From: Aurantiochytrium sp. KH105
Lineage: Eukaryota > Sar > Bigyra > Thraustochytrida > Thraustochytriidae
Assembly: GCA_003116975.1 (NCBI GenBank)
Contig: BGKB01000021.1
Coordinates: 434,001 to 498,000, forward strand
DNA: 64,000 nucleotides
Direction of reading: 5' to 3'
The position numbers were made by a program, and so were the translations under genes. Shown in pieces: positions 6,467 to 60,335 of the stretch (its first letter is position 1; each line of letters starts with the position of its first letter). A model generated the notes under the pieces. That model worked only from the letters and a program-made list of their open reading frames with translations, was not told the origin of the DNA and ran no database searches.

Positions 6467-8201
6467 GGTTGCTTTGCTTTAGCTCTGCTTCGCTTTGCCT
6501 GAGCCGCTGCTCGCCGTTCGCCTCTGTCTTTGCCGCTGCCTCGGCTCCGCCCCTTTCCCGGACCCCGCACGCTCCGCGCGCGCCCTTGCTGCGCTCCCTT
6601 GCCGCGCAGCGAGTGAGCGTCGAGTTCTGCCAAGCCATTCATCGTCCGTCGTCTTGCTCGTCTTCGTCGGGTGCCAGTCATTCCAAGGGACGCCGAGCAA
6701 GTGTCCCTTCGTTTGCATGTGCAGGCCAAGCAGTGGCTTGCTTCGTGTTCATTTTGATTCAACGCAATCGCCGATGATGCTGCTGAAGATAGGCTAGAGA
6801 CTTGTTGACAGAGCCCCCCCATGCACGCCCATGTCCAGGCAACAGAAGGCCGGCCATTCAGGTGAAATGAAGAAGGGAAGAGTAGGCAAAGGCTCATCTC
6901 TCGCGCGTTCGTCCTGTATAACAGGCGGCAAGGGAATAGCAGCAGCAAGGCCGCCTTGCCTCGACCACGCTCCCTGCTTTGCTGTATACCAGCTGACGGA
7001 AAAGAATAAATCGTCTGCCTCGTTGGTCGTTCAGATCCCACCGGACCGCCTCGCCAACGCACCACCCTTGAAAGACCCTCCTTCAGAGCTCTCTCTCTCT
7101 CTCTCTCTCTCTGGAGTGCCACGCGCCAGCCCTTCCTTCATTCCTTCCTTCATTCATCCGTCATGATATTCACCATTTCCTTCATCCGTGGGCCGCTCCT
7201 TTGATCATTTTCTCCACAGGATAAACGCCAGACTCCGTTCCATTGCGGCAGACTGCCAGTGCAGCAGCAGCTGCAGCAAGTTTCTGCGCTTGTCGGGAGG
7301 CCGCGTCGGGTCCACGCCTCGTCCGCAAGTTGACCCCCCAAACGCAGCGGGTCCAGCCGTTCTCAAGGTGGCCACTTTGGCCCCAACGCGGCTCAGTCTG
7401 AGCAGCCTCGAGGACCGTGACGCCAGAGACATCGTAGGACCTTTTCCGCGCGCGAGAACGGACGAAGAATCGACCCCACGCAGCGACCATTCTTGCCAAG
7501 GACTCTACTACTACATTTGCGTTGCCTTCTACGTTGGCACGGTACGCCACGATGCATTCCTTGCTTTGTTGAGCACTGCAATGTCTCGCGTCGGGTTGTG
7601 TTGCGTTGTGTTGCGTTGCGTTGTTTCGCTTCGATGGATCGATGGATGGATCGATCGATCGACCATCCGTGGTATGATCGGGCTCGCTCGCTCGATCGAT
7701 GGATCCATCCATGATGGTGAACGACGGCGGATGAATTCCACCAGTCCCACGGACTTTTCTTCCGGCCCCGGCTCGATTCCGCAAACCGCATTCGCGCGAG
7801 GCAGCGAGAGACCGGGCTCGCGAAGACCCGCGCGAGGCAGCCTCCGCGCGTCGCTGCGTGAGGCTGGCACGCCGCGCTCGATTGGCGGCAGGGGCCCGTC
7901 GGTCGTGCGTGGGGCCCGCGCGCATCGATCGCATCGCATCGCATCGCATCGCATCGCATCGCATCGCATCGCATCGCATCGCATCGCATCACAACGCGGG
8001 CCGCCTCGCGCAGCCGTTCGCGATTCGAGCTAGTCTTTGCGGCGCAGAGCCCGAGCCCGAGGACGCGCACGAGGACGAGGCCAAGGATTTGTGAACAAAG
8101 AGGAGGGGAGGGGAGAGGAAAGAAAAGGAGAGAAGAGTTCGTTGGGGTCTTTACACCGACTCGCACCGTCGTGGTCGTCGCAAGGTAAGGCATCGAGAGC
8201 A
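6467..8201. promoter_or_regulatory. Divergent 5' region between MTR4 and the PhyH-family gene
   Basis: This 1.7 kb holds no supported gene. It contains a (CT)n run at 7088-7112, TTCC-type repeats at about 7130-7165, GATC/GGAT-type repeats at about 7630-7715 and a (GCATC)12 array at 7931-7990. A purine-rich AGGAGGGGAG tract lies at about 8100-8135. Several open frames exist on both strands, but they translate the microsatellites into low-complexity peptides. It presumably carries both promoters and 5' UTRs. A GTAAGG at 8185 could be a 5'-UTR splice donor. Confidence 0.5.
7931..7990 (+). repeat. (GCATC)12 pentanucleotide microsatellite
   Basis: Twelve uninterrupted GCATC units end 211 bp before the ATG of the PhyH-family gene. 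The units touch with no spacers, so this is a simple tandem repeat. Confidence 0.95.
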
Positions 8202-22584: not shown

Positions 22585-23309
22585 GGTGTCACCACCGAGC
22601 ACTCTCTCGAGCGTCTGTCTGACTGTTTGTCTGTCTGTCTACCCGCCTTGCCCGTCCGTCTGCGTGCAGACTTTCTCGCCAACCTCGCCGCTCGCGGCGT
22701 GCGCAACGGCGGTATGTATGTATCTATGTCTGTATTTCGGTGCTGGACGACGACGACGACGACGACGACCACCGTAAAGCAGCACTTCGTGGCCTAGCTG
22801 CGCAACAGCGCTCGCGACAGCGTTCGCGACGTCGGCGCGTCCGCCGGCCTGGCGCGAGGGCCCCGCCTGCGCTCGCAGCTCCTTCGCCGTCTGTATCCCG
22901 TCTGCCCGCCGGCCTCGGCCGCCTCGGCTCGCGGGTCTGCAGCCTCCCTCGCCGCGAGCAAGCCGGGCCAGCTGGTTTTCGCGTGCGGCGCGTGCCGCGA
23001 TTGCCCCTCGCTTGCTCGCTCGCTCGCTCCGGCGCTCCCTCGCTCCGGCGCTCGCTCGCTCTCCGGGCGAGCGGCCTGCGGCCCCGGCCAGCGGCGGGCG
23101 GGCGGGCCCAGCGCGTCCGGACGCCCGCGTGCTCGCGCGCTCCCTCGCTCGCGCGGCGCCGAGGTGCTTGGCCTCGCGCGCGCGGGCTCGGCTGATTCCG
23201 AAATGTATGAGTGAACGAACGATTAGGCATAGTATGAATGTATAGTATAGGCCTATAGTATGTAGTAGTATCATAGACACAAGAGGAGAAACCCTGCCTG
23301 GTGAAAAAC

Positions 23310-31200: not shown

Positions 31201-32637
31201 GAGCCGAGCCGAGCGCCAGCGCCACTGCTGCTGCCGCGCCAGCCGGGAAGTATCATTGGCGTGCCTTATCTTTCCTTTCTTTCTCGCCTTCGCTCCGCCG
31301 GACCAACCAGGGGAAGTATTCCTGCGCAAGTGCGCGTCAGCTGGCGCGGCACGCTGGTCGTGTCGCGCACGCTCGCGCTCGCAGCAGCTTAGCAGCTGCA
31401 GCTGCAGGCACGCGGCGGTTGCAGCTAGCTAGCTACAGCGCTGCGTTGGTGCGAGCGCCGAGGTGCGCGAGCTCGCATTGCAGTCTGTCGGTTGCAGTCG
31501 CTTTTGTGCAAAAAACACAACATAATGTAAAATGAAATAAGATGATAAACAAATACAAGTAAAGAACGAGCGCACGCAGCCCCCGTCGATCAATCTCCCG
31601 CGGCTGGTAGTGGTGTGGCTGGCTGGCTGCGGCTGCGACTGCCGCATTTCACGCGTGCGCGCGGGGTTGTCCATGCATGCGCCGGATCTTCCCTCGGTTG
31701 CGTCGGGTCGTGGCGCTGGGAAAAAAAGGGGTGGAAAAAGAACGAAACTTTCCGATACAGAAATCAAAGTAAGGAGAAAACAATGTTAATCACCAGGAAG
31801 AAGTGTGGCTCTCACGGTCGTCCATTTTCCAGCCACCGCTCTCTGCGACTGTGCCTGTGCACACAACCTACTGCTGCTTCTGCTGCTGCTGCTTCTCCTC
31901 CGTCCATCCATCCATCCATCCTTCCCTCCGTTCATCCTCTCCCGCCCGCTCAGGTCGTCCCTTTCCAAGCCCACGCAGAGAGGCAGCCTTGACCGACCGC
32001 CGCCTGCACCCGGTCTGCACTCCTGACTTCCAGCATCCTGTCCCAACCTGCCTGCGCGAACGGCGTAGCCAGTACAAGTCAAGAAAGAGGGCGGCAAAGC
32101 GAGCAAGCGAGCAGGCAAGCACGCCCGCCCGCCCGCACGCACGCAAGCAGGCAAGCCGCAGGCTCCGGCACGCCCGAGCGACATCCGCCTGCGTTATGAT
32201 TCCAAGTCCAGGCCGCATGTGTTTCCCGCAACAACACGTAGTTGGTCGTTCATTTCCATTTCCCGTCCTTTCATTTCCTGGCCGCGCTCCTCTCCCTCTC
32301 TCACCCTCTCGCCTCACCCTCTGTACCGCGTGCACTCACACGCGCTCTCTGAGTGACTCTCCCTCTCCCTCTCTCACCCTCTGGCGCGCACTGGGATCCC
32401 GGCCTCCTGTCCCCGGTCGCGCGCGCGACACGACTTCGCTGGAGCGATCGGCCGATCGATCGATCGATATCGATCGGTGGAGCGATCAATTCCGAAACCT
32501 CTACGGCTGCCCGCCCGCCAGATCCGCCGCGGTGCATCGCGACCCGCCGACGCGCAGCTCGCTGCAGACAGACCGCCCGCGAGACAGCAAGACAGCCAAG
32601 ACAGACAGCGTGTGAGCGAGCGAGCGAGGAGGTAAAG
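28206..32637. other. Gene-poor 4.4 kb region upstream of the first ACSBG gene
   Basis: I can support no gene. 28206-29300 has short open frames in several phases that may be more of the decayed TIR-like locus. 29300-30360 is unremarkable except for GCGGCT-type repeats at about 30195-30230. 30360-31430 is very GC-rich, with overlapping Arg/Ala/Ser frames on both strands. 31890-32160 has ATCC-type and AAGC/GCAA-type repeats. 32290-32480 has CTCTC tracts and a GATC run (about 32452-32472). The last 30 bp before the ATG at 32638 are GAGC repeats. Confidence 0.5.
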
Positions 32638-34980
32638 ATGCCCACCCCCGACGCCGCCGCGCCGGTGAACAAGCCGAGCGACTATGCCGTCTACCACGAG
32701 GAGGATGGCCCCTTCTGGACCGCCGAGTCCAGCGGCGCCTCGCGCGTGAACTTTAGCGAGACCGGCGTGGGCTCCGAGAGCGCCATTCCTGCGCTCACGC
32801 TCATTGACGTCTTCGAGAGGGCCGTCAAGCGCGGCGGCAACAGAATCGCCTTCCGCACGGAAAACATGCCCACGCTCCGCCGCGGCGAAGAACCTCCGGA
32901 GGCGCTCCCGCTCAAGGACTGGAAGTCCTGGACCTGGAAACAGTACAAGGCCGACGTCCACCGCATCGCCAGGGCTCTTATGGACCTCGGCGTGGAGCAG
33001 CACGACGCCCTCTCCATTTTTGGCTTCAACTCACCCGAATGGTTCCTTAGTGCCATCGGCGCCGTGCATGCAGGTGCCAAAATCGCCGGCATTTACCCCT
33101 CGGACACGCCCGCCCAGGTCCAGTTTAAGGCCTTTCACAGCGACACCGCTGTTGCCGTTGTCGAAAATGAGCAGTGCTTCAAAAAGTTCGCCGAGGTCGT
33201 CGAGGATCTTCCTTACCTCAAGGCCATCGTTTGCTGGGACTATGAAGCCACGGACATCACTCGCGAGGACGGCTCTGTAGTCGAGGTCCTCACCTTTGCC
33301 GAGTTTCTCAAGCGCGGCGACACCGTCGAGGAGGCCGCCCTTGACGAGCGCATCTCCAAGATCGAGCCTACCATGTGCTCTGCCCTTATCTACACCAGTG
33401 GTACCACTGGTCGCCCCAAGGCCGTAATGATGTCGCACGACAACCTCGTTTTTGAGGCCAGCGCCGTCGTCCCCAACCTCGGAGGAGCCTGCATGACCAA
33501 TGCCGAGGAGCGCATTCTCTCGTACCTGCCTCTCTCGCACGTCGCCGGTATGATGGTTGACATCGTGGCCCCCATCATTGCCACCGCCTTCCACAAGGGC
33601 CGCATCTGCGTCTGCTTTGCTCGCCCGTACGATCTGCGCGCCGGCACGCTGGGTCAGCGCCTCAATGTCGTGGAGCCCACCATCTTCCTTGGCGTGCCCC
33701 GTGTGTGGGAAAAGATTCAGGAAAAGCTCATGGCCGTCGGTGCCAAAACCACTGGTCTCAAGAAGAAGCTCTCTACGGCTGCCAAGAAGCGCGGTCTCGA
33801 GTTCCAGGAGGAGCAGCAAATCGGCCGCTCCGGTGCCAACCCCGGCTTTGGCCCCCTTGGCATCTACAAGAAGCTCCTCGGACTCATCAAGGGCAAGCTG
33901 GGCCTCTCCAAGTGCAAGTTTGCCTTTGCCGGTGCCGCGCCCATGACCCGCGAGACCCTTCAGTACTTTGGCGCGCTGAACATCAACGTTAACGAGGTCT
34001 ATGGCATGTCCGAGTGCTCCGGTGCCGTCACCTGGTCCACGGACAAGGCTCACGAGTGGGGCACTGTCGGTTATGAGATGCCCAGCTGCGAGGTCCGCGT
34101 CTTTAAGATTGCCGAGGACGGTACCAAGACCGAGTGCCCGCGCGCCGCCAACATTATGCACGCCACCGAGGAGGAGCAGGGCGAGGTCTGCTTCCGTGGC
34201 CGTAACATCATGATGGGCTACCTTGCCAACCCCAAGCTTGGCGACGATCACGTTGCCGAGATCGAGGAGAAGAACGCTGCCGCTATCGACTCCGAGGGCT
34301 GGCTTCACAGTGGTGACAAGGGCGCCATTTCTGCCCTTGGCATGCTCAAGATCACGGGTCGCTACAAGGAGCTCATTATTGGCGCCGGTGGCGAGAACGT
34401 TGCGCCCGTCCCTATCGAGGACGCCATCAAGGCGCGCATGCCTTTTGTCTCCAACGCCATGATGGTCGGAGATAAGCGCAAGTTCATGGCCGTCCTCCTC
34501 ACCCTCAAGACGGTTGGCGCCACGGGCGAGCTTCCTGGTACGAACAAGCTCATGGGCGCTGCCGCCGACTACGGTGAGACCATTGAGGATGCCTGCGACA
34601 ACGAGGCGCTCATTGACGAGATCACGACACAGCTCAAGGCGATCGGTGATGACGGCGATGTTACGCCCTCGAACGCGGCTCGCATCCAAAAGTTCACCAT
34701 TCTTCCGCTCGACTTTTCCGTCTCCACGGACGAACTCACGGCCACGCTCAAGCTCAAGCGCTCCGTGGTCGCAGACAAGTACGAAGACATCATCGAGGCC
34801 TTTTACGAGTCCAAGAGCGTTTTTGTGCCGTACTCGACCGTTGGCGCCTACGCCACGGGCGGCCCGGTCGACGACTCCATCGTCGATGGCTCCTTCAAGG
34901 GCGACTTTAGCATGATTGGCGACGATGATCCGGATCTTCAAAACGTCGATGTCCTCGAGGCGATTGACGAGGACAATTAG
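32638..34980 (+). CDS. ACSBG: Long-chain acyl-CoA synthetase, bubblegum (ACSBG) type, copy 1
   Basis: This is a 780-residue AMP-forming long/very-long-chain fatty acyl-CoA ligase that activates fatty acids for lipid synthesis or oxidation. The AMP-binding signature YTSGTTGRPKAVM begins near residue 252. It is followed by YLPLSHVAGMMVD, FLGVPRVWEKI, YGMSECSGA (about 455), GWLHSGDKG and GRYKELIIGAGGENVAP, which position the adenylate and the catalytic Lys region. The bubblegum type is chosen over ACSL1/FAA because of the DWKSWTWKQY and PRVWEKIQEKL segments. There is no signal peptide or membrane helix. The C-terminal tail is acidic (DDDPDLQN to EDN). Codon use is strongly biased to C-ending codons, suggesting high expression. 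Its paralogue lies 2.7 kb downstream in the same orientation. Confidence 0.95.
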   Translation: MPTPDAAAPVNKPSDYAVYHEEDGPFWTAESSGASRVNFSETGVGSESAIPALTLIDVFERAVKRGGNRIAFRTENMPTLRRGEEPPEALPLKDWKSWTWKQYKADVHRIARALMDLGVEQHDALSIFGFNSPEWFLSAIGAVHAGAKIAGIYPSDTPAQVQFKAFHSDTAVAVVENEQCFKKFAEVVEDLPYLKAIVCWDYEATDITREDGSVVEVLTFAEFLKRGDTVEEAALDERISKIEPTMCSALIYTSGTTGRPKAVMMSHDNLVFEASAVVPNLGGACMTNAEERILSYLPLSHVAGMMVDIVAPIIATAFHKGRICVCFARPYDLRAGTLGQRLNVVEPTIFLGVPRVWEKIQEKLMAVGAKTTGLKKKLSTAAKKRGLEFQEEQQIGRSGANPGFGPLGIYKKLLGLIKGKLGLSKCKFAFAGAAPMTRETLQYFGALNINVNEVYGMSECSGAVTWSTDKAHEWGTVGYEMPSCEVRVFKIAEDGTKTECPRAANIMHATEEEQGEVCFRGRNIMMGYLANPKLGDDHVAEIEEKNAAAIDSEGWLHSGDKGAISALGMLKITGRYKELIIGAGGENVAPVPIEDAIKARMPFVSNAMMVGDKRKFMAVLLTLKTVGATGELPGTNKLMGAAADYGETIEDACDNEALIDEITTQLKAIGDDGDVTPSNAARIQKFTILPLDFSVSTDELTATLKLKRSVVADKYEDIIEAFYESKSVFVPYSTVGAYATGGPVDDSIVDGSFKGDFSMIGDDDPDLQNVDVLEAIDEDN

Positions 34981-37691
34981 ATGTTGACGCCGCCCGATTC
35001 TTGCATGCACGCACGGTCGATCAATCCTCTGTGCTAGCCCAGCCCAGCTCCGCTCCGCTCGCTTCCGTTCATTTCATTTATACCACATGCGCGGAGCAGA
35101 CGAGGCCGTGGCCGCCTGCATCATCCCCTCTCTCCCCATTGTGTTTTCGAGATGTCCTCCTTGACACTCGTCGTATCCTTTTTTTTAATGATGTCTGTGG
35201 TTTTGGTTTTGCTTTCTTCTTCTTTTTCTGCTGCTTGCTCTGCTGCTGCTCTTTTAGGGAAAAAAAATGCTGAGCGCAGCCGGTCGATCGAAAATTTAAC
35301 CCCGCCGCGTATCTTGCTGCGGCTAGCTACAAGAAGCCGCTATTTTTCCAAACGCAGCCGCGACAGCAAGCTCATCACAAACAAGCAAACAAATAAATAA
35401 ATGTACAAACAAACAAATCATCAAACAAACCGCGTCCACCAAGTCTTGCCACAAGCTCCCTCCCTCGCCCCCCCCTTCCCTCGCTCCTTCCTTGCTTCCT
35501 TGCTTCCTTGACTCCTTCCTTCCCTCTTCTTCCGCCTGCGGCGCTGCCGGTCCAAATGCCGTGCACGTGCTGCGCTCGCTCCGCTCCGCTCTGCACTGCA
35601 CTGCTCGAGCGCGGCGCGTGCACTGCCTGCCACGCCTCTGGCGCTGCTCTGCCCTGCGCTGCGGCTGCGGCTGCGGCTGCGGCTGCGGCTGCGGCGCGCA
35701 ATTCCGACGCTGCGCGGCCGCGGCCGAGCGAGGTCCCCGGGCCCGCGGCGCGAGGCGCGGCGAAGCAACCGAGGCGAGGCAACGGAGGCGAGGAGAGCGC
35801 GTGTGCAGGCAGCTAGAGGCACTCGCTACTGCTACTAGTAGTGTAGTAGCGCAGCGAGGTCCCGGGCCTTGGCGTATCTTGGAAGCGGGCGGAGGAGACC
35901 CGGGACGTCGGCACGTCTTGGATCGCCGCGCCCGCCCGGCACCGCGCGCTCGGGTCGCTCGCTCTGCGCAAGCTGGCGTGCCGAGCCGAGGACGGAGTGA
36001 CGGATCTCTGGTCGGTTCGGACGGAATTTACTACATTGGCCGAGATGAGATGGTTCAAGGCATGCATGGCTCAGGCTGGGATAAATGGCAACATTTTTCA
36101 GAAAGCAACGCTCGGCGAGGACGCAGCGAGCGAGCGAGCGAGCCAAGACTGGAGCACAAGACATATGGCGGCCTTGCAGGGTTTGGCTTTTGATTGCTCC
36201 GTTTGGTTCTGTCGTTTGTTGTGTTGTTTCGATTGAATTGTGTTTGTCGATTTTTGTTCTTCATTCATTCGTGCCCAGGTGGACCAGGACGATCACAAGC
36301 TCGTCATCTCGTGCACCCGTCGCCGCGGTCGCGAGGGTCGAGCCCCGGGACCCTGTCTGCGGCGCAGCACCTGCGCAAGTGGCGCGCAAGGGCCGCGCCG
36401 CGGGATCCAGGCCGGCTGGGCGCCGGGCTGGTCCGGCCTGCCGTAGTGGCCGTGCCGCGACCCAACTCGGGACTTCGACCAAAATCCTGGCTCGCTCCCT
36501 TGCGCACGTGCGCGCGCAACCGCAAGCCGCCGTCGCGCCGCCATCTGGCTGGCTGCAGCGCCCTCCGCGGCGCGAGACCGAGGCCAAGGCCGAGACGAAG
36601 GTCGAGACGGCCGAGGCCTCGCGGCAGACACCCGCGCGCGCACGAAGGCGGCGAAAGAAAGAAGCTGCAGCGGGAGCGGCGAATTGGCGGCGCGTACGGC
36701 GGAGAAGAGGGGTACCCCGGCCGGGCCCTCGGCTACTTTTACTTACCGCACGCCGCGGGCGAGGTTCGCTCGCGGCCAGTCAAGTGCCGGCTGCGGCATG
36801 TCGGCACGCAGCGCCAGTCCGGTTCTCGCCGCCGCGGCTCGCTCGGACACGCGTCTCGGCCGCCTTGGAACTCGGGTCGACCTTGCCTAGGTTGCAGTTG
36901 CTCGCTTGGGTCGGGTTGACTCGCATCGCATCGCGACCTCGACCTCGACCTCGGCCTCGAGCACCACGACGACCTCGAGGAGGCCGACGAGGAGGAGGGG
37001 GCGGAGAAAGAACGTAGCCGGGCAGGCCGTCGTGGACTGTGTCCAATCAAGGTGGTCTTGAGCGCTTGTGCACGCATGGCGGAGGCGAGCCGCGGCCTCT
37101 ACTTCTTTGCAGGGGTGCCGGGTGAGGGGCTCTCCCACCCTCACAGTGTGAACGGAGGCTGGGAGTGCGTGCGCTAGTAGTAGCCACACCACTTCCGCGG
37201 TGGCATGGAGCTGGCCGATGGAGTTTGGTCTGCACGCACGCAACGCACGCACGCACGCACTGCACGTCTGACTGACAGAGTGATGGCATGACTGCACACG
37301 AGCGAGGAGTGAGGTACGTACGAGCAGCCCAGATTCTGCCGGCAGCAGCAGAGCGGCCCAGGCTGCACCGCACGCATAGCAGTGGAGTAGGGGAGGCGGG
37401 TGAGGCGAGCGACCGATAGCAAATAACAGAAGCAAATCTTTACGGCCGCACAAGAAGAAAATGGGAACTGTCGCAAGTGCTTCACGTCCCCACTTCCCTT
37501 TTTGGGGCTTGTTCTCTCTTATCCCGAGCAGCCCGAATGGCAGGCAGGCAGGTAGGTGAGCAAGCAAAGCAAGAAGTAACTGAGCGAGCGAGCGAGCAAA
37601 ACTGAAACCCGAGCAACAACCGATCGACCTGGGAAAAAGGCAAAGTACACGTCCGCGGGACAACAGTACAACTCAATACAGAACAGCGAGA
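34981..37691. other. Repeat-rich spacer between the two ACSBG genes
   Basis: No gene is supported over 2.7 kb. It contains T-rich tracts (about 35170-35235), AAAC/AAAT repeats (about 35380-35425), CTTCC tracts (about 35460-35525), a TGCGGC hexanucleotide run (35658-35698) and GAGC runs (about 36127-36141). A long GC-rich zone (36290-37020) and another GAGC run at about 37583-37598, 95 bp before the next ATG, complete it. Open frames here are Arg/Ala-rich low complexity. Confidence 0.6.
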
Positions 37692-40055
37692 ATGCCGAAA
37701 CCTCTGGAAACAGCCCCGGCCAACGAACCGTCAGACTACGTTGTGTACAACGAGAGCGATGGCCCCTTTTGGAACTGCGAAAAGGATGCAGTAGCCAACA
37801 TTCGCTATTCGGAGACCGGCGTCGGTTCTGCCGAGCAGTGCCCCTCCAAGACCCTCATCGAGCTCTTTGATCAGGCCGTCGCAAAGCGTGGAAACAAGGT
37901 CGTTATCCGCACGGAGAACCTCCCGCCTCTTGCCCCTGGCCAGGAGCCACCGGCTGCTCTGCCCCGCAACCAGTGGAAGTCTTGGACCTTTAAGCAGTAC
38001 CGTACTGTCGTTCACAATGTCGCCAAGGCCTTTATGGACCTCGGCCTCGAGCAGCACGACACCGTCTCGGTCTTTGGCTTTAATGCGCCAGAGTGGTTCT
38101 TCGCCGCACTCGGCGCCATTCACGCCGGCGGCAAGGTCGCCGGCATCTACCCCTCCGACACAGCAGAGCAGGTCCAGTTCAAGGCCTTCCACAGCGACAC
38201 GGCCGTCGCGGTTGTGGAGAACAAGCTTTGCTTTGACAAATTCAAGTCCGTCGTCGAGGACCTTCCCTACCTCAAGGCCATCGTCTGCTGGGCTTACGAT
38301 GGCGGCAGTGACATCACCCGCGAAGATGGCTCCGTGGTCAACGTCCTCACCTTTTCGGACCTCGTCGCCCTCGGCAAGACTGTCGAACAGGGTGCCCTCG
38401 AGGACCGCATTGCCAAAATCGAGCCCGGCATGTGCGCTGCACTCATTTACACGAGCGGTACCACGGGCCGCCCCAAGGCAGTCATGATCTCGCACGACAA
38501 CTTGGTCTTCGAGTCTGCCTCCGTGCTTCCCTACTCGGGCGCGGTGGGCAAGTCCAATGAAGAAGAGCGTCTGATTTCGTACCTGCCGCTCTCACACGTT
38601 GCCGGCATGATGGTCGACATTGTCTGCCCCATTCTCATGAGCGCGACAATGAAGGGCTGGTGCTCGGTGAACTTTGCGCGACCCTACGATCTCAAGCGCG
38701 GCACCCTCGGTCAGCGTCTCGGCGCTGTCGAGCCGACCTTCTTCCTCGGCGTGCCCCGCGTCTGGGAAAAAATTGCCGAAAAGCTCAAGGCTGTCGGCGC
38801 CCAAACCACTGGCCTCAAAAAGAAGCTCTCCACCACCGCCAAGAAGAAGGGCCTCGAGCACCAGCTCGCCCTTCAGCTCGGCGGATCCGGCAAGAGCCCC
38901 AGCTATGGCCCCCTTGGCATTTACAAAAAGCTTCTCGGTCTCATCAAGGGCAAGCTGGGCCTCTCCAAGTGCAAGTTCGCCTTTGCCGGCGCTGCGCCCA
39001 TGACTCGCGAGACCCTCATGTACTTTGGTGCCCTTGGCATTAACATCAACGAGGTCTACGGCATGTCTGAGTGCACGGGCGCCACGACTTGGTCCTTTGA
39101 TGATGCCCACGAGTGGAGCACCGTCGGCTTTGAGCTGCCCGGCAGCGAAGTCCGCGTCTTCAGGGTTGCCGAGGACGGTACCAAGACCGAGTGCCCACGC
39201 ACAGACAACATTCTTCACGCCTCCGAGGAGGAACAGGGCGAAATCTGCTTCCGTGGTCGCCACATCATGATGGGCTACCTTGCCAATCCCAAGCTCGGCG
39301 ACGACCATGTCGCCGAGATCGAGGAGAAGAATGCAGCGACCATCGACTCCGAGGGATGGCTCCACAGTGGTGACAAGGGTGCCATCTCCACGCGTGGCAT
39401 GGTCAAGATCACTGGCCGCTACAAGGAGCTCATCATTGGTGCTGGTGGCGAGAACGTGGCGCCCGTACCCATTGAGGACGCCATCAAGGCGCGCATGCCT
39501 TTTGTTTCCAACGCCATGATGGTCGGCGACAGGCGCAAGTTCATGGCCGTCCTGCTCACCCTCAAGACGCAGGGTGCCACGGGAGAGCTCCCTGGCACCT
39601 CGGCGCTCGACGGACCTGCCAAGGAGTATGGAGAGACCATTGAGGATGCCTGCAACAACGAAGCGCTCATTGAGGAGATCACGCAGCAGCTCAAGGAGAT
39701 TGGTGATGATGGCGATGTCACCCCCTCCAACGCAGCTCGTATCCAAAAGTTCACCATTCTTCCGCTCGACTTTTCCGTCGCCACCGACGAGCTCACCGCC
39801 ACGCTCAAGCTCAAGCGTTCGGTGGTTGCAGACAAGTACGACGACATCATTGAGACCTTTTACGAGTCCAAGAGCGTTTTTGTGCCGTACTCTACCGTCG
39901 GCTCGTACGATGTCAAGGGCGAGGCGGACGCGGAGCCCCAGGGCTCTTTCAAGGCAGCCGGTAACCTCGATCTTGCCGCCGAGGACGATGACGAGGACGA
40001 GAGCGAGGATTTTGCCCACGACGAGGAGGACAACCGTGCAGAGGTTCTCGCCTGA
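37692..40055 (+). CDS. ACSBG: Long-chain acyl-CoA synthetase, bubblegum (ACSBG) type, copy 2
   Basis: This is a 787-residue paralogue of the gene at 32638, collinear and highly similar along its whole length. It shares the N-terminal NEPSDYVVYNESDGPFW block and the AMP signature YTSGTTGRPKAVM (from about 253). YGMSECTGATTW and GRYKELIIGAGGENVAP are also shared, so the same reaction is expected. Differences cluster in the N-terminal 20 residues, around the GKTVEQG linker, and in the acidic C-terminus. That tail is longer and more Asp/Glu-rich (AEDDDEDESEDF) than in copy 1. The intergenic DNA between the copies is not similar, so the duplication is not recent. Substrate chain length cannot be read from sequence. 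Confidence 0.95.
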   Translation: MPKPLETAPANEPSDYVVYNESDGPFWNCEKDAVANIRYSETGVGSAEQCPSKTLIELFDQAVAKRGNKVVIRTENLPPLAPGQEPPAALPRNQWKSWTFKQYRTVVHNVAKAFMDLGLEQHDTVSVFGFNAPEWFFAALGAIHAGGKVAGIYPSDTAEQVQFKAFHSDTAVAVVENKLCFDKFKSVVEDLPYLKAIVCWAYDGGSDITREDGSVVNVLTFSDLVALGKTVEQGALEDRIAKIEPGMCAALIYTSGTTGRPKAVMISHDNLVFESASVLPYSGAVGKSNEEERLISYLPLSHVAGMMVDIVCPILMSATMKGWCSVNFARPYDLKRGTLGQRLGAVEPTFFLGVPRVWEKIAEKLKAVGAQTTGLKKKLSTTAKKKGLEHQLALQLGGSGKSPSYGPLGIYKKLLGLIKGKLGLSKCKFAFAGAAPMTRETLMYFGALGININEVYGMSECTGATTWSFDDAHEWSTVGFELPGSEVRVFRVAEDGTKTECPRTDNILHASEEEQGEICFRGRHIMMGYLANPKLGDDHVAEIEEKNAATIDSEGWLHSGDKGAISTRGMVKITGRYKELIIGAGGENVAPVPIEDAIKARMPFVSNAMMVGDRRKFMAVLLTLKTQGATGELPGTSALDGPAKEYGETIEDACNNEALIEEITQQLKEIGDDGDVTPSNAARIQKFTILPLDFSVATDELTATLKLKRSVVADKYDDIIETFYESKSVFVPYSTVGSYDVKGEADAEPQGSFKAAGNLDLAAEDDDEDESEDFAHDEEDNRAEVLA

Positions 40056-42643: not shown

Positions 42644-45600
42644 CTAATCAAGCCTTCTCCGCTTTCCACGTGCTTCAGAAATCACCTCGTCCTCATCTTC
42701 TGCATTGTCCATCTCTGCTGAGACGATGTTGCTCTCGTTTTGGTCGTCAGATCTGCTCGATGCGCTTGCACTCGCGACTGCTATATCTGCCGCTGCCGAC
42801 GTCTTCTCAGCTTCCTTGGCATCGTCACCATGTTCAGCTGCTTCGAGAGGCTTTGTTGCATCCTCATGCAAGCCAATTACCTGTCTGATCGACCGTACAA
42901 GAGCGTCCACCTCGTCTGGCTGGCCCCTGTTCAGCATTCGAACATACAAAGGATTGCCACTCCACGATATCCCGAAACGCCCCGCCCACGTGCCCGTGTC
43001 TACCAACTCTTTGTCCAAGACACAAGGGATCATACTCGCGGGCTTTACACGCTGAAGAGCATAACAGAACTCGTCTCGACAGTTGTCGAGCTCTGTCCTT
43101 TCTTTATTGACCTTCCTCATGTACTCTTGGGTCACGAAGACCACGACCGCTTTGCACCGGTCAATGCCATCTGCCATCGAATCGAGAACCTCTGTGCCAA
43201 TGTCTTTCTCGTCGAGCCAACAGCGGATTCCGCGACCCTCAAGTGCACCCGCGATGGCCTTCACCATTCCATGGACCTCCATGTTCTCACCCCAGGCATG
43301 CGACAGGAAGACGTCGAAAGGCTTGGCATCACTGGTGACGGATGAATACAAGCCTCGTGCGGCCTCACCATCCTCTACAAATGGCGAGAACAGTGCCAAA
43401 GAAAGACGTATTCCCCTTTGCAATGAGGGAACCTCGTTGTAAGTAGCATCTGCAAATGCATCGACAGAAGCACATGCATCTTCGCTTTCGGAGCCGTCAG
43501 AGCTAAGAAAGAGTTTCGGTCCAAGATTTCCCCTCATGAAAGACGCGTCGATGCTCTCCAGACAATGCTGGAGAATCTTGACGTGACTCTTCAGACTTTT
43601 CTTCGCGGGTTTCTTGAAGTGAAGCGTCACCCGCCTGCCACTTGTTTCCAGGATCATGTCCACATTTTCAAAGGCAATACTCGCAAAGTCGGAGAATACG
43701 ACACCATTTCTCACGCCCACGAGGCCCGGCAAACTCTGTATGAGACTGGCAATGAAGCGTTGGAACACGCCTTTGGGGAGGACTTTGAACTTGATATAAG
43801 CCAAAGCGCGTTGCTCGCCCAGGCCACAAAGTGCCTCTGTTCTTACGTCATTCTTCACTGGTTGCAAAAGGCTTGGTATCAGAAGCGCACCCTCCTTGTC
43901 GACGATATCACCATCCTCGTCGACATCCTCGATCCAAGGACTCGGGCATGCCAACAGCATTGCGTACATCAGCTCAACGAGGTATTCGATCGGCTGTCCT
44001 TGCCATAGCCAATCTAGTAGTTGCCGACTGGCAACTCCACGTTCTGACCAGACATCTAGCGCATCTCGTAGATTCCTCGGCAGTTTCCCTTGATGCAACA
44101 GCTTCTTCTTGTGCCTTTTCATGTGATTCATGCTCGGGTCGCAGATGACACGCGATAGGTTTTCCAACAACCATTGCGGCCGAATCACGACAATCTGTCG
44201 CAGTACGTCATGTTGGCCTGTCGTCAGGTGCACGAGCACGCCGACTTCATGCATGTACTTGAGCATCTTGGACACATCTTCTTTCGAAATGTGGCAATCT
44301 GTTATTGCCAGTCTTTCTACATCATCCAGCGACAAGTAATCCTTGTCTTGCGAGAGCAGCTTCTCCAAGCAGTAGGACCATCGTAAAGGGACTTTCTTCT
44401 TGACAAAGTCCTTGTCAGCAACCGCCTTCGAAAGCGACTCGCGAAGCGACCTGACCCGATTGGGCTTGTCATCCCGAATGGTGTTGTCGATCGGGAAAAA
44501 CCAGAGTTTTGCTTCGTCATTCAGCAGCACAACGGGCTTTGCGCTGCAAGGTCTCAGCACCTTCATGTCTAAGGTGTCTTCGATTTCATCGTGCTCCTCA
44601 CAGTCCGGTACCTGGTCAAGATATGTCCCCACCAGGGCAATATTGGCATCCGGTGCGTGTAGACGAATGGAGTCGATCCAGAAGCGAAGCGTCTCCAACG
44701 AGTCCTCTTGCGAGGCGAGCTTGGCGTACTCTATCTCGCCGAGTTTATTTTTGACACGGTCCTTGCCCAGAACCTCGCGCATGTCGAAAACCAGCACGTA
44801 GACGCCGTATTGCGTCAAGAACAGATGGTGTAGGGCATAAAAGACTTCCTGTCCACCATAGTCCCAGACCGTGAAGCTAATCTCCTCGTCTGGCTTGTCG
44901 GCTTGCTTCTTTATATGGAGACGAAGCGGTGTACGCACGGCTTTGGCAATCTCGCTTTTGTCAAATGACGCCTTTGATCCACGACTCGAAGTGGACTTGC
45001 GAGGAGATTCAGGGGGTTGCATCACATCACTTGACGAATGTCGGGAGGGACCCTCGGCAACGTCCTGCCGACGGTATTTGTACTTTGCAAATTGCTCGCC
45101 AAGATCAGCGTCACCGAATTGTTTGCGCTCTTTCCAGTCACGCGTGCGCATCAACTTGAGTTTCACACCAATGGTTGAGTCATGATCCGAATTATACGGT
45201 TGTCCTAGAAGCGTGCGAATCGTTGATGTCTTGCCTGCGGCGCCTTTGCCCACAACCATGAGCTTGGCGCGACCCCAGCGTACCTTTTCATCCGCCAAGA
45301 GTGCCTTAGAGGCAACTGTGCTGAGATCCTTTAGCTCAATCTTCGCGAGCTTTACTCGAGCCTCAATACGAGCGAGGATGTCGGGGGAAATACGGCGACG
45401 AGACAGACTGTTTGGAATTTCCGGCTTGTGAGCATTCACTTGTCATTTTATACATTGAGTGCCACAGTGTCAGCATCATGGAAACGTACCCTAGTCCTTG
45501 GAGAATTTCGTTGCTCTCCAACGCAGTCGCTAGTGCCTCCGCTCCCGCGTTGCCAATCTTGTTGTCGATCAAGCTGTGGAATGGCGTTGCGAACGTCAGC

Positions 45601-47499
45601 GGAAGACAGGCCATGCCACACCAAGTCTTTCTGCAACGTACCTTAAAAAAGTCAACAGTGACTTGTTGTTGGTCAGAGCATCCGCCAGCGCCTTTGCGCC
45701 ATCGTCGCCAATTTTGTTGGAATTCAGCCTGTGTTTGTTTATCGAAGCAAACGTGCATTGCATTAAGCAAGTACGGAAAACGACAGCGTTGAGCATCAGT
45801 TGGTACGATAAGATAATTGCAACGTGCTTGCTGTTCAGTCATTCTTGCTCCTAGCGTATAATATTTCTATCTTCACTTTTACTTACCTGAGAGTCTGCAA
45901 GGACGAGTTCTTCGGAAGCGCATCTCCCAGCGCCTTTGCGCCATCATCGCCGATTTCGTTATCCTTAAGCCTGCGTTTGTACATCATAGGTGAATGTCGT
46001 GAACCAAAACGTGCAGAGCGAGTTGTAGAAACCATTAGTAGCAGCATTAGGCATCCGTTTGGTGTGATAAGATTATTGCATCGTGCTTGCTGGTCAGTCG
46101 CTTTTGCTCCTTGCGCAAAGTCCTTCTTTTCCCCCACTGCTACCTACCAGAGCGTCTGCAGTGACGAGTTCTTCGCGAGCGCATCTGCTAGCGCCTTTGC
46201 GCCACCAGGACCGATATTATTACTCGAAAGTCTGCGTTTGTGCGTCATGGACAATGCCGTGAACCAAAATGTGTATGGCGTGGTGTAAGAACCATTGACA
46301 GCAGCATTATGCATCCGTTTGGCGTGATGCAATTATTGCAACGTGCTTGCTGGTTAGTCGCTCTTGCTCCTTGCGCACGGTTCTTCTTTCCCCATTGTTA
46401 CCTACATCAGCATCTGCAGCGAAGAGTTCTTCGCGAGCGCATCTGCTAGCGCCTTTGCGCCGGCATCGCTGATGTTGCTTTTCGAAGACCTGTGCTTATG
46501 CGTCATGGAAAACGTCGTGAGCCAGAATGTGCATGACGTGGTGTAAGCACCATTGACAGCAGCATTATGCATCCGTTTGGTGTGATAAGATGATTTCAAC
46601 GTGCTTGCTGGTCAGTCATTCTTGCTTACTCCCTCAGAGTCCTTCTTTCATTACTGTCACTTACTCTAGCGTCTGCAAGGACGAGTTCTTCGTGAGCGCA
46701 TCTGCAAGCGCCTTTACCCCATTATCGCCGATATTATTACTCGAAAGCCTGCGTTCGTGCGTCATGGATAATGTCATGAACCAAAATGTGCATGGCGTGG
46801 TGCAGAAATCATTCATAGCAGCATTATGCATCCGTTTGGTGTGAAAAGATTATTGCATCGTGCTTGCTGGTCAGTCGCTTTTGCTTCTTGCGCAAAGTCC
46901 TTCTTTTTCCCCACTGCTACCTACCAGAGCGTCTGCAGTGACGAGTTCTTCGCGAGCGCATCTGCAAGCGCCTTTGCGCCACCAGGACCGATATTATTAC
47001 TCAAAAGTCTGCGTTTGTGCGTCATGGACAATGCCGTGAACCAAAATGTGTATGGCGTGGTGTAAGAACCATTGACAGTAACATTAAGCATCCGTTTAAT
47101 GTGATGCGATTATTGCAGCGTGCTTGCTGTTTAGTCGCTCTTGCTCCTTGCGCACGGTTCTTCTTTCCCCAGTGTTACCTACATCAGCGTCTGCAGCGAC
47201 GATTTCTTCGCAAGCGCATCTGCTAGCAATATTGCACCAGCATCGCCGATTTTTTCAAATAGGAGACTGCGTTTATACGTCGTTGACGATAAGGAAAAAA
47301 ACAGAAATGGTGTGGAGTGTCACCAAAGAAGACAACAAATCATGGTCGAGCATACGTTTGGAGAAGATATTATCGCGCCCATGCCGGTCAGCCTATATTA
47401 TCTCTTGCAAGTACATGCGCCATTGACGTACCGTAGGCGTTTGCTGCCCTCGGACATCAATTTGATCGCATGCTCAATACTCGACGCGTCTGATGCCAT
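42644..47499 (-). CDS. Ten-exon LRR-ROC-COR-TIR receptor-like protein
   Basis: Exons on the minus strand are 47432-47499, 47183-47266, 46925-47008, 46665-46748, 46406-46489, 46148-46231, 45887-45970, 45642-45728, 45490-45573 and 42644-45407. All nine introns are GT-AG and phase 2, and the product is 1168 residues. Exon 1 gives a 22-residue cap (MASDASS). Exons 2-9 each encode one leucine-rich repeat of the type L-x-SNNIG-x2-GAKALADAL (residues about 23-248). The ROC GTPase has P-loop GKGAAGKT at 301-308, switch II WDYGGQE at 429-435 and TYLD at 509-512, with a Ser-rich insert between. The COR region spans roughly 580-860. The C-terminal TIR starts FDVFLSHAWG at about 945, has CWLDEKDI, and has a candidate NADase Glu at 1027 in DNCRDEF. 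The extreme C-terminus is basic (GKRRRLD). It is probably cytosolic or nuclear; ligand unknown. Confidence 0.9.
45642..47266 (-). repeat. Tandem array of exon-intron LRR modules (about 259 bp period)
   Basis: Exon 3' ends fall at 47183, 46925, 46665, 46406, 46148, 45887 and 45642. The spacings are 258, 260, 259, 258, 261 and 245 bp. Intron sequence is repeated along with the exons, for example the TGCTTGCTGGTCAGTCG block. Blocks three modules apart are nearly identical (47183 versus 46406, 46925 versus 46148, 46665 versus 45887; offsets 777, 777 and 778 bp). This indicates a duplicated three-module unit. Confidence 0.9.
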
Positions 47500-57261: not shown

Positions 57262-58614
57262 CTAAGAACCAAAGACAGTCTGAATTGCGCTTGCGTAGGC
57301 TGCGCTCGAAATCTGTTCATATTCATCCAAAGTGCCCAAGGTAGCATTGACTCGCTCAATCATAAGCACATCACGCACACTCGCCGGCACCCAGCCGCGC
57401 TCAAGATAGTAACGGAAAAGATCAACCTGTGCGAAATCAACGAGACGCTCCAGCTTGTCCAATGGAAATGCTGCAAATCGTGGGCAAGTCTCGACGAGCG
57501 CGTCCCAATACGCGTTGATCAGACCTGGCATCGCGTCAAAATAGTCACCGCGAGCATCGGGAAAGAAAAAGTACGCCAGGTCAACACATCCCAGACCAAG
57601 CCCAGAAAACTGAAAATCCACCCCTGCACAGGCATCTTCGCTCAGAAAAAGATTCGCAGCCTTGAGATCACCATGAATAATCGTTGCAAACTCTTGCAAA
57701 AGTCGCGAAATTCGTTGCACCTCGGGACTTTGCGCCTTGACCCACGGATCGCTTGGGTGTATCAGGGCGCTCACAAACGTCTGCGCTTGCAAAAGACGCG
57801 AACCAAGTGTCTTTATGCCAGGTCGCGCAAGAATGTTCGCATGCCGTTTGGCTAAAAATTGGACACATTGCGGCCAACTTGACGATGACGAAGATTGTTC
57901 CCCTCGCATCTCGCACTTGCCTGGATTGAAAAAACTACCACAAGTCCAGCCTCCGGGGCCTTCTGACGTGCCGCGATGACTCGCCGTCAAGAGATCATTG
58001 CGCGCCTTGCCCGTATAAAGGAAACCATGAAAACGTCCAATCCACTGCATTACGAGCGCAGCCTGATCCACCGCGAGAAATTCGGGATGCAGCGGAAAGG
58101 CATGACGTAAATCATTCATCACAAAGACAAATCGTCCTGAGTCCGTGTCAACCTCTGCGTGAATACACGCTGGGATCGGGATACTCGCGCCAGCTTCGGC
58201 GTCTGCAGCAAGCTGCGTTGTACAGACGGCGTAGAAACGTGCCTCCATGGCGTACGAGAGAGAAATCACTCGCCCCTTGGGCGAATCTACATTGGCAATG
58301 TCGACCAGCTTGCAAATAAGAAAAGGTGCTTCGTCGCCGGTCTGTACCTCAAAGACGGGTGTCGATCTGCCCCCCGTGAACGCCTCTCCCACGGTCTTGC
58401 GTACGATCCACGACGCGTCATTCTGCTCAATCTTCTCGCGCGCATGAGCAGGCACTGACTGTAGCGTATTTGCTTCTTGCACATGTTCTCGCAGACCTTG
58501 GCGAAGAGCCTCTCCATCGAGAGCCTCGAGCGCCGCAGCTACCTTGGTCAAGGCCTCGCGTGGCTTTTGGTCCTGTTGCTTGAGCTGCTGCTGCTTCTTC
58601 TTCTTTTTGGCCAT
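57262..58614 (-). CDS. APH/EcKinase-like small-molecule kinase
   Basis: This is a 450-residue protein of the aminoglycoside-phosphotransferase/choline-kinase superfamily, closest in style to EcKinase-like (CHK-like) proteins. Catalytic features are HGDLKAANLF (His314, Asp316, Asn321), the metal-binding Asp333 in VDFQFSGLGLG, and a probable ATP-binding Lys102 (LICKLVDI). Glu125 (YAMEARFY) is its likely partner. The N-terminus is Lys/Gln-rich (MAKKKKKQQQLKQQ) and a poly-Ser run (241-246) interrupts the domain. The substrate is unknown; relatives phosphorylate choline, steroids or aminoglycosides. The ATG at 58614 is chosen, as the extension upstream starts on a non-ATG codon. It is divergent from KYNU with 347 bp between the starts. 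Confidence 0.82.
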   Translation of the reverse strand: MAKKKKKQQQLKQQDQKPREALTKVAAALEALDGEALRQGLREHVQEANTLQSVPAHAREKIEQNDASWIVRKTVGEAFTGGRSTPVFEVQTGDEAPFLICKLVDIANVDSPKGRVISLSYAMEARFYAVCTTQLAADAEAGASIPIPACIHAEVDTDSGRFVFVMNDLRHAFPLHPEFLAVDQAALVMQWIGRFHGFLYTGKARNDLLTASHRGTSEGPGGWTCGSFFNPGKCEMRGEQSSSSSSWPQCVQFLAKRHANILARPGIKTLGSRLLQAQTFVSALIHPSDPWVKAQSPEVQRISRLLQEFATIIHGDLKAANLFLSEDACAGVDFQFSGLGLGCVDLAYFFFPDARGDYFDAMPGLINAYWDALVETCPRFAAFPLDKLERLVDFAQVDLFRYYLERGWVPASVRDVLMIERVNATLGTLDEYEQISSAAYASAIQTVFGS

Positions 58615-58961
58615 TGCGCTAGTCAACGACGACGAAGACAAGACAGCCGTTCGCCAACAGTTCACCTTCCAGGGTTCGTTCTTGTCCTCGCCCTCGTCCC
58701 CGTCCCCGTCCTCGTCCTCGTCCTCGTCTTTGTACGTGTTCTGGTCGACCTCGTTCTTGAAGTGTTGCGCTCTGTACTCCAGTTGATCTCAACATAGCGA
58801 GGTTGACGCGACGTGGACGAAACAGACCTCCAAAGCCGAGACGAAAGCTGCAGCGGACCCAGGTCTGGACGCGGGCTGGGCAGCTGCGAGACTAGCGAGG
58901 CTTCCTCCCAACGCACGGACGCGTCGAGAGCGGGAGAGCAGAGGATAGCTTGTCAAGAAAG
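58615..58961. promoter_or_regulatory. Compact divergent promoter between the kinase and KYNU
   Basis: This 347 bp region separates two start codons pointing away from each other. It has an imperfect CGTCCC/CTCGTC run (about 58680-58730). No TATA box is evident. Confidence 0.5.
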
Positions 58962-60335
58962 ATGGCGCTACTCGAGCGCGCTGCCACCGAACTGGGCGTG
59001 GCGCTCGAGGGCGAGGCTACGGACCCGAGCAAGGGCCTAGGCTCCCAGTGGTTTGCAGAGCAACTCGACGCCCGCGACGAACTGCGCGAACTGCGCCAGG
59101 AATTCATCTTTCCGCGGGTCGACCGAGCGGATCCAGAGTCCGAGTCCTGCGTTTACCTGTGCGGCAACTCGCTCGGATTGCAGCCGCGAAAAGCGAAAGA
59201 GTATGTCACCGAGGAGCTCGACAAGTGGGCGAATCTCGGCGTCGAGGGTCACTTTGCTAGCACTCGACCCTGGGTCACCGTCGACGAGCTCTGCATCCAA
59301 GACATGGCCCATGTGGTCGGCGCACAATCCAGCGAAGTCGCGACCATGAACAGCCTGACCGTCAATCTTCATCTAATGATGGTGTCTTTCTACCGTCCTA
59401 CGCAGACGCGCAACAAGATTCTCATTGAGACCAAAGCCTTTCCCTCGGATTGGATGGCGACGCGGTCTCAAATTCGCGAAAAGGGTTTTGACCCAGATGA
59501 ATGCCTCGTCGAGGCCAAGCCTCGGTCCGGAGAGGAGACGCTCCGCACAGAGGACATCGAAGCCCTCATCGCGGAGCACGCGGACTCCCTGGCACTTGTC
59601 ATGCTCTCTGGCATCCAATACTACACGGGTCAGGCCTTTGAGTTCGAGCGCATCGTCAAGGCTGTGCGGAAGCACTGCGGCGATGATTGTCGTGTGGGCT
59701 TTGATTTAGCGCACGCAGCAGGCAATCTGGAGCTCAAGCTCCATGACTGGGATGTCGACTTTGCGTGTTGGTGCACGTACAAGTACCTGAACAGCGGTCC
59801 AGGCGGCATCGGCGGTTGTTTTGTGCATTCAAAGTTCGGGGACGGAAAGTCGCTCCCGCGCTTTGAAGGGTGGTGGGGCCACCGCAAGGAGGACCGCTTC
59901 AAGATGGACGCCAAGTTTCTTCCTACCGAGGGAGCATTTGGCTGGCAACTCAGCAACCCTTGCGTTTTGCCCCTTGCCACCCTTCGCGCCTCACTCGAGC
60001 TCTTTCGCACTGCCACCATGCCTCGACTGCGGGCCAAGTCTGAGTCGCTCACGCGCTACCTCGAGCTGCTTTTGGAGAGCGAGCTTCCAACTGGCGCGTG
60101 CAGATCGATTACCCCTGGTTTTACGCGTCGCCACGAGCGCGGCAGTCAGCTCTCGCTCGTTTTCGCAAACCCCGTCAAGGCTGTGCATTCTGCTCTCGAG
60201 AAGAAGGGCGTCATTTGCGACATGCGCGAGCCCGACGTGATGCGCATCGCGCCTGCTCCCATTTATAATTCGTACATGGACGTTTGGCGATTTGTCCAGC
60301 TTCTCAAGGAAACGCTTGCTGACGGCGCCAAGTGA
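58962..60335 (+). CDS. KYNU: Kynureninase
   Basis: This is a 457-residue PLP enzyme that splits kynurenine and 3-hydroxykynurenine to anthranilate or 3-hydroxyanthranilate plus alanine, in tryptophan catabolism and de novo NAD synthesis. The family signatures are YLCGNSLGLQP (about 65-75), TVNLHLMM and FPSDWMATRSQI. The cofactor Asp248 is in VGFDLAHAAGN and the Schiff-base Lys274 is in CTYKYLNSGPGGIGG. WWGHRKEDRFKM and WQLSNP follow. The length is normal. The start is the ATG at 58962, since the frame upstream opens on TTG. No targeting signal is visible, so it is probably cytosolic. No other kynurenine-pathway gene is in the window. Confidence 0.97.
   Translation: MALLERAATELGVALEGEATDPSKGLGSQWFAEQLDARDELRELRQEFIFPRVDRADPESESCVYLCGNSLGLQPRKAKEYVTEELDKWANLGVEGHFASTRPWVTVDELCIQDMAHVVGAQSSEVATMNSLTVNLHLMMVSFYRPTQTRNKILIETKAFPSDWMATRSQIREKGFDPDECLVEAKPRSGEETLRTEDIEALIAEHADSLALVMLSGIQYYTGQAFEFERIVKAVRKHCGDDCRVGFDLAHAAGNLELKLHDWDVDFACWCTYKYLNSGPGGIGGCFVHSKFGDGKSLPRFEGWWGHRKEDRFKMDAKFLPTEGAFGWQLSNPCVLPLATLRASLELFRTATMPRLRAKSESLTRYLELLLESELPTGACRSITPGFTRRHERGSQLSLVFANPVKAVHSALEKKGVICDMREPDVMRIAPAPIYNSYMDVWRFVQLLKETLADGAK

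Follow-up and report, generated by a model that had tools for sequence, protein, structure and literature searches.

An LRR-ROC-COR-TIR gene family in a thraustochytrid as a candidate NLR-scale receptor repertoire on a ROCO GTPase core

Receptor families that are both large and variable are mostly a topic of work on multicellular organisms (plants, animals and fungi), and TIR domains of the NAD-cutting kind are known from plant, animal and bacterial immunity. The gene considered here belongs to a unicellular heterotroph, the thraustochytrid Aurantiochytrium sp. KH105, and lies in a stretch of 64,000 nucleotides of contig BGKB01000021.1 (positions 434,001 to 498,000, hereafter the window). It encodes leucine-rich repeats (LRRs), a ROC GTPase, a COR domain and a C-terminal TIR domain in a single protein, which, as judged from its sequence, is probably an intracellular non-self receptor akin to the nucleotide-binding leucine-rich repeat (NLR) proteins, built on a ROCO core and with a TIR enzyme as output. 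The genome holds a large family of such genes with two sensor types, and this family may quite plausibly amount to an NLR-scale repertoire with a ROCO GTPase as switch, in which one ROC-COR-TIR chassis is combined with two interchangeable sensors (shuffled LRR cassettes and exchanging WD40 propellers) with diversifying ligand faces and with a TIR enzyme, alongside genes of the TIR-STAND-WD40 type.

The gene lies on the minus strand of contig C21 of the assembly (G000:C21; 76 Mb in 367 contigs) and runs from an ATG at 47499 to a stop codon at 42644. A first-pass annotation had proposed one spliced frame of ten exons and 1168 residues, and an independent rebuild reproduced it, with all nine introns of the GT-AG type and all nine in phase 2. 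Each of the eight LRRs has a phase-2 exon of its own, seven of 84 nucleotides (nt) and one of 87 nt, so that gain, loss or skipping of a cassette leaves the frame unchanged; among the 45 possible forward exon junctions 44 stay open, and only the junction of exon 3 with exon 6 creates a stop codon. The same architecture is seen when a consensus LRR pattern carrying no splice-site requirement is run over 20 loci including the window. Of its 175 matches, which correspond to about 150 distinct LRR exons by the match table because stretches of the loci overlap, 174 carry an AG acceptor at the base where it is expected (the exception is in L030), and 170 of these 174 have a GT donor exactly two bases past the last codon; two gaps of 518 bases in L025 suggest cassettes missed by the pattern. 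The presumed second haplotype of the gene (L029), 93.4% identical over 6.6 kb, retains exon 1, all eight LRR exons and the large exon. Moreover, the first in-frame Met of exon 10 falls inside the P-loop strand (KLMVVGKG), and exon 10 alone therefore cannot encode a whole ROC and needs an upstream exon. At the level of the gene model, the LRR exons and the ROC-COR-TIR exon are confirmed as one gene.

Above the curated cut-offs, a Pfam search of the whole protein returned LRR_6 (E 1.5e-32), TIR_2, Roc and COR-A (Table 1), in agreement with the ROC, the COR and the C-terminal TIR of the first-pass annotation; neither NB-ARC nor NACHT is among the 14 Pfam families with a listed match of E ≤ 1. The annotated motifs are all at the residues given for them, namely the intact P-loop GKGAAGKT, WDYGGQE (429–435), FDVFLSHAWG (945–954), CWLDEKDI (977–984) and DNCRDEF (1022–1028) with Glu1027. 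The protein has what a ROCO protein is recognised by in sequence, a P-loop and a DxxGQ-type switch II (WDYGGQE) with COR directly behind ROC, and its PDB relatives are 4wnr, 3dpu, 6hlu and LRRK2. Just before WDYGGQE, the ROC carries a Ser-rich insertion of about 80 amino acids (residues about 337–420, exon 10); the own-genome classes carry a stretch at this site, and all seven aligned bacterial relatives are without the insertion.

That the TIR domain may be an enzyme is suggested by Glu1027. The same Glu is required for the activity of other TIRs (PMC10022894; this and the other papers cited here are represented by excerpts). In the family, each of the 12 aligned own-genome rows, from three classes, has Glu1027, as do all seven TIRs of an alignment that includes the L032 protein described below and all eight rows formed by the window protein and seven bacterial ROC-COR-TIR proteins; profile search aligns it with the DWCWDEL of the CRISPR-associated TIR Cat1. 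The PDB matches of the TIR profile are seven (PdTIR, Cat1, two Sefir chains, two AbTIR sequences and BtTir), and the AbTIR entries are named NAD(+) hydrolase. A single-sequence fold model is of low confidence (predicted local distance difference test 58, predicted template modelling score 0.56), but the 14 best PDB matches of this model in Foldseek are all TIR entries, seven of them at E ≤ 0.001, which is consistent with a TIR fold.

Many matches in the genome are paired on different contigs at equal or near-equal score, from which two haplotypes are inferred, and the counts of COR-A and TIR places include both. COR-A is found at 124 places, 116 of them above the cut-off. For TIR, 150 of 258 candidates were scored and the counts are lower bounds: at least 96 of the 124 COR-A places have a TIR match 0.4–2.6 kb downstream on the same strand, by joined coordinates, and 58 of 155 TIR places, among the matches listed, have no COR so placed. 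Six of the 28 COR-A places that lack a listed TIR were looked at; three have weak in-frame TIR matches (C138:137449, C69:155713 and C69:151107), L024 has a sub-threshold one (TIR_2), and in L017 and L021 no TIR was found. TIRs at least 45% identical to that of the window over most of its length occur at 30 places or more, and three further places match it over 26–48 residues only. Three classes can be distinguished: class A, in which LRR exon cassettes precede an exon for ROC-COR-TIR (the window gene, L011, L012, L014, L018, L019, L025, L029 and L030); class B, with LRR exons and with a TIR that is more divergent and is detected in some copies and not in all (the C138/C69 cluster, L013, L015, L016, L023 and L024); and class C, in which a single exon holds WD40 repeats together with Roc, COR-A and TIR_2 (L022, L026 and L027, all three scanned with Pfam), to which two tandem frames in L033 are similar by eye. 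In a ROC-COR tree, for which 93 rows were offered (13 own, 80 prokaryotic) and a length filter kept 67 (all 13 own and 54 prokaryotic, with three of the seven prokaryotic TIR rows dropped), the own genes group together in one long-branched clade (100/100), within which class A is separated from B and C (96/84); the program warned of long-branch meeting, and the own genes are the only eukaryotic rows. One clade thus divided suggests a change of sensor type on a single chassis. At the top of long result lists of openly licensed PMC text, no report of such a repertoire in a labyrinthulomycete or thraustochytrid was found.

Selection was estimated from the ratio of nonsynonymous to synonymous divergence (dN/dS). 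Between the window gene and L029 it is 0.28 for ROC-COR-TIR, which argues that the gene is maintained and is not a decaying copy, and it ranges over 0.14–0.45 in six presumed allele pairs (the value of 0.45 is that of L013/L023, a comparison disturbed by a frame break in L023) and over 0.15–0.22 between four class C paralogues. Among the LRRs, 38 array cassettes of seven class A genes were compared within genes, with L029 and L012 (one array cassette) excluded. A choice of variable positions by entropy was rejected as circular and replaced by consensus positions with a random-position control. At six predicted concave-face positions, read from the LxxLxLxxN consensus after the entropy table was known, dN/dS is 1.33 (bootstrap 0.93–1.77, an interval that includes 1), versus 0.29 (0.25–0.38) at the other 22. 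Replacements among the family cassettes are concentrated on this predicted ligand face: the five highest replacement rates are those of repeat positions 2, 26, 3, 28 and 5, all predicted to be concave (the sixth concave position, Gln25, is conserved), and a random set of six positions matches the observed rate in 4 of 20000 draws, and in 36 of 20000 when drawn from non-core positions. In group A2, the only group whose interval excludes 1, the concave positions reach 1.81 (1.11–3.29). Cassettes are also duplicated within genes, with window cassettes 1 and 2 resembling 4 and 5 and L018 cassettes 1 and 2 being 96% identical, and the nearest relative of window cassette 3, after its own allele, is a cassette of another locus, L030. 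The presumed alleles L011 and L019, 89.4% identical over 9.9 kb, have four versus five repeats in their N-terminal array by exon spacing; when the last four repeats of the two arrays are paired in sequence, they show a dN of 0.157 and a dN/dS of 0.45, versus 0.053 and 0.24 in the seven fixed repeats.

Several observations weigh against a diversifying NLR-like receptor with a TIR enzyme. They include the late choice of the six positions and the inclusion of 1 in their pooled interval, as well as the values for group A1, to which the window gene belongs (0.98 at the concave positions, 0.63–1.6, again including 1), and for the five array cassettes of the window gene itself (0.71, 0.54–1.08, versus 0.40). 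The eight LRRs of the gene and of L029 differ with a dN/dS of 0.16, that is, under purifying selection only, and diversifying selection between these presumed alleles is unsupported. Cassette diversification is a signal of the family and is not established for the window gene itself. With regard to the domains, COR-B is weak in the window protein (16.2 bits, versus a cut-off of 27), and L024 has, by eye, a Gln in the place of Glu1027 together with its TIR_2 match below threshold, so that not every copy of the family can be an enzyme.

In the second sensor type, the WD40 part of four class C genes (L022, L026, L027 and L033), dN/dS between paralogues is 0.63–1.56, and the silent divergence of the six pairs is 0.09–0.39 in this part versus 0.84–1.85 in ROC-COR-TIR. 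The low value hints at sensor exchange between paralogues; the GC content at third codon positions, 0.77–0.92 in the WD40 part versus 0.65–0.68 in ROC-COR-TIR, could also lower it. WD40 repeats are present, too, in a frame without COR on contig C51 (L032:829-5523, minus strand; 1565 amino acids), with an N-terminal TIR (E 2e-16, 33% identical to the window TIR) and an NPHP3_N/STAND-type NTPase (E 2.3e-16); 11 of its repeats, when compared, have a mean pairwise identity of 0.51. A NACHT search of the genome gave 17 places, 15 above the cut-off, and the TIR-STAND-WD40 order was read in one frame, that of L032.

The first-pass annotation had also treated the domain order as special, a view that does not hold, and the architecture cannot be claimed as new: it is found in bacterial loci here and in a published survey (Kaur et al., 2021, PMC8195603), and ROCO-TIR proteins are reported from other eukaryotes. 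In a second prokaryote scan, the best 80 of 293 relatives were kept by similarity to the window protein, a selection by which frequencies among them are biased. The own TIR profiles flagged seven of the 80, and only those seven went to Pfam, which found TIR_2, Roc and COR-A in all of them: six have the order LRR-ROC-COR-TIR (L034, L035, L037, L051, L066 and L074) and one the order TIR-ROC-COR-TIR. The former order is present in cyanobacteria, Chloroflexota and Nitrospirae. The TIR stands both before ROC and after COR in an alphaproteobacterial protein (L105:2490-5171). A first prokaryote scan gave 59 stretches, none of them confirmed, and a plasmid search gave one COR protein.

As for mechanism, an LRR solenoid made of one-repeat exon cassettes would use its concave face to bind a ligand that is foreign or altered self, presumably in the cytosol; binding would change the ROC-COR GTPase dimer, with GTP switching, and this change would bring the C-terminal TIR domains together, which could then cleave NAD+, or produce cyclic ADP-ribose as a signal, and would set off a defence or death response. 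The same sensor, switch and TIR could instead serve signalling other than that of infection, in stress, in developmental control or in kin or mate recognition (allorecognition), which we regard as rather unlikely. Incompatibility in fungi is under the control of WD40-bearing STAND proteins such as HET-E (PMC4986451), this genome has WD40-ROCO-TIR genes and one TIR-STAND-WD40 frame, and brown-algal ROCO genes respond to other stresses (Teng et al., 2024, PMC11378527), whereas the family size and the diversified ligand face disfavour pure housekeeping; allorecognition and defence are inseparable by sequence alone. It is unlikely that the TIR is a scaffold and not an enzyme, recruiting other TIR proteins by TIR-TIR contact in the manner of MyD88-type adaptors: the Pfam TIR family PF01582 is below its cut-off in the window protein (18.4 bits versus 21.3), the fold model is of low confidence and L024 has seemingly lost the Glu, but the invariance of Glu1027 in the own-genome and bacterial rows and the AbTIR hydrolases among the PDB matches speak for catalysis.

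Expansion by duplication under little selection, with many copies decaying, seems very improbable for the family as a whole. Some members do look broken, given a TIR 84% identical to that of the window with one internal TGA (C21:611960-612400) and short frames elsewhere (C5:74196, C2:130773 and C123:2504); the frame of L023 is interrupted between COR and TIR, and tandem copies are found at C138/C69. Against decay stand the low dN/dS of ROC-COR-TIR in allele pairs and class C paralogues and the long open frames at many of the listed places. Recent acquisition of the whole LRR-ROC-COR-TIR unit from a bacterium would explain the identical domain order, and is hardly to be credited when the window protein is just 21–23% identical to the seven bacterial rows, its LRRs are split by introns and the own genes form their long-branched clade with no bacterial sister, in a tree subject to the long-branch warning and without other eukaryotes. 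An NLR-like receptor with a TIR output stays the preferred reading.

Table 1. Features of the LRR-ROC-COR-TIR gene in window positions
Feature	Position	Strand	Remarks
Exon 1	47432..47499	-	22 codons including ATG (MASDASSIEHAIKLMSEGSKRL) plus 2 nt; donor GTACGT; phase 2
Exon 2, LRR 1	47183..47266	-	84 nt; phase 2-2
Exon 3, LRR 2	46925..47008	-	
Exon 4, LRR 3	46665..46748	-	
Exon 5, LRR 4	46406..46489	-	
Exon 6, LRR 5	46148..46231	-	
Exon 7, LRR 6	45887..45970	-	
Exon 8, LRR 7	45642..45728	-	87 nt
Exon 9, LRR 8	45490..45573	-	
Exon 10, ROC-COR-TIR within one exon	42644..45407	-	stop codon ends at 42644
Tandem array of LRR exon and intron cassettes	45793..47250	-	Tandem Repeats Finder; period 260 bp, 5.6 copies, 79% matches
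ROC GTPase, residues about 295–565	44456..45268	-	Pfam Roc, E 4.2e-17
P-loop GKGAAGKT, residues 301–308	45227..45250	-	G and AAGKTS invariant in own-genome alignment
COR-A, residues 588–734	43949..44389	-	Pfam, E 1.4e-11
COR-B-like stretch, residues 786–871	43538..43795	-	Pfam, E 0.0097; weak, below cut-off
TIR domain, residues 947–1051	42998..43312	-	Pfam TIR_2, E 1.1e-17; low-confidence fold model resembles TIR structures
Codon of Glu1027, putative catalytic Glu	43070..43072	-	aligned rows; NCRDEF in the WCxxEL place of other TIRs

Elsewhere in the window, Pfam identifies an Mtr4-like helicase (3308-6478), a myosin head (20008-22638), an EcKL/APH-like kinase (57265-58788) and a kynureninase C-terminal domain (58896-60332), and two adjoining AMP-binding frames on the plus strand (32353-34977 and 37584-40052) share a C-terminal domain and are perhaps a tandem pair. 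The genome has a eukaryotic gene structure with spliceosomal introns, and a genome search found no light-harvesting protein. Matches to the pfaD family of polyunsaturated fatty acid (PUFA) synthase, at 682–711 bits, lie in four frames (contigs C72, C155, C17 and C58), two of about 2080–2150 amino acids and two of about 1850; two subunits bearing an enoyl reductase are typical of thraustochytrid PUFA synthases.

If the family senses non-self, a single-celled protist would have converged on the receptor design of multicellular plants, animals and fungi with a different nucleotide switch and, with another type of LRR, on the exon-per-repeat arrangement seen in brown algae. The family suggests a protist immune-receptor repertoire on a chassis that is also present in bacteria, ties the bacterial LRR-ROC-COR-TIR proteins to eukaryotes, and could offer a direct route to how ROCO switches, of the LRRK2 class, drive a TIR enzyme. 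Plant TIR-NLRs combine an LRR sensor, a nucleotide switch and a TIR output in a large, variable family, and the resemblance in anatomy proposed in the first-pass annotation is borne out by the presence of LRR, ROC, COR and TIR in one gene model. Membership of the plant group is rejected, with no NB-ARC found and the domain order reversed: a Ras-like GTPase plus COR serves as the switch, the LRRs are N-terminal and the TIR is C-terminal.

LRR-ROCO genes of brown algae were reportedly the subject of work by Zambounis et al. in 2012. In a more recent study of these genes (Teng et al., 2024, PMC11378527), 72-bp phase-2 LRR exons, exon shuffling, selection on the concave face and alternative splicing are described; the family here is similar in having one LRR per phase-2 exon, an LRR-ROC-COR core, exon shuffling and concave-face selection, and differs in its 84-nt exons, that is, a 28-residue repeat instead of 23 amino acids, and in its TIR. 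LRR-ROC-COR is called the sole brown-algal structure there, with groups 3 and 4 adding a C-terminal peptidase or DUF900, other SAR species are given at most four ROCO copies, and TIR is mentioned, in the excerpted text, in a general list and in the red alga Chondrus and not for any brown alga. The Chondrus protein (TPR-ROCO-TIR) and the TIR proteins with ROC-COR of Aplysia (PMC9334734) share the eukaryotic fusion of ROC-COR with TIR; TPR takes the place of LRR in the former, the latter are a handful of genes, and exon cassettes are described for neither in these excerpts. Fungal proteins of the HET-E type, NACHT-WD40 in order, are matched by L032, with its STAND-type NTPase and WD40 repeats plus a TIR, and the WD40-ROCO-TIR genes use a similar sensor, while the window protein has LRRs and a ROCO core and, according to the excerpt of PMC4986451, no LRR was found in fungal NLRs.

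The closest likeness in domain order is to the bacterial LRR-AP-GTPase(ROC)-COR-effector proteins (Kaur et al., 2021, PMC8195603), in which TIR is one of at least 24 domains at the C-terminal effector place and the LRRs are described as rapidly evolving, to which the family here is likened. These proteins and the six loci found here have TIR as C-terminal effector in the same order, with a shared TIR Glu; the LRRs of the thraustochytrid are, unlike theirs, split by introns, its COR-B is weak where the bacterial one is strong, and its ROC carries the insertion absent from bacterial ROCs. Copy number is also different, with 11 paralogues in one bacterium (Kaur et al., 2021) versus 124 COR-A places in what is apparently a two-haplotype assembly. 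Relative to the literature compared, what is new is the scale in a eukaryote, the presence of two sensors on one chassis, and cassette genetics combined with a TIR output.

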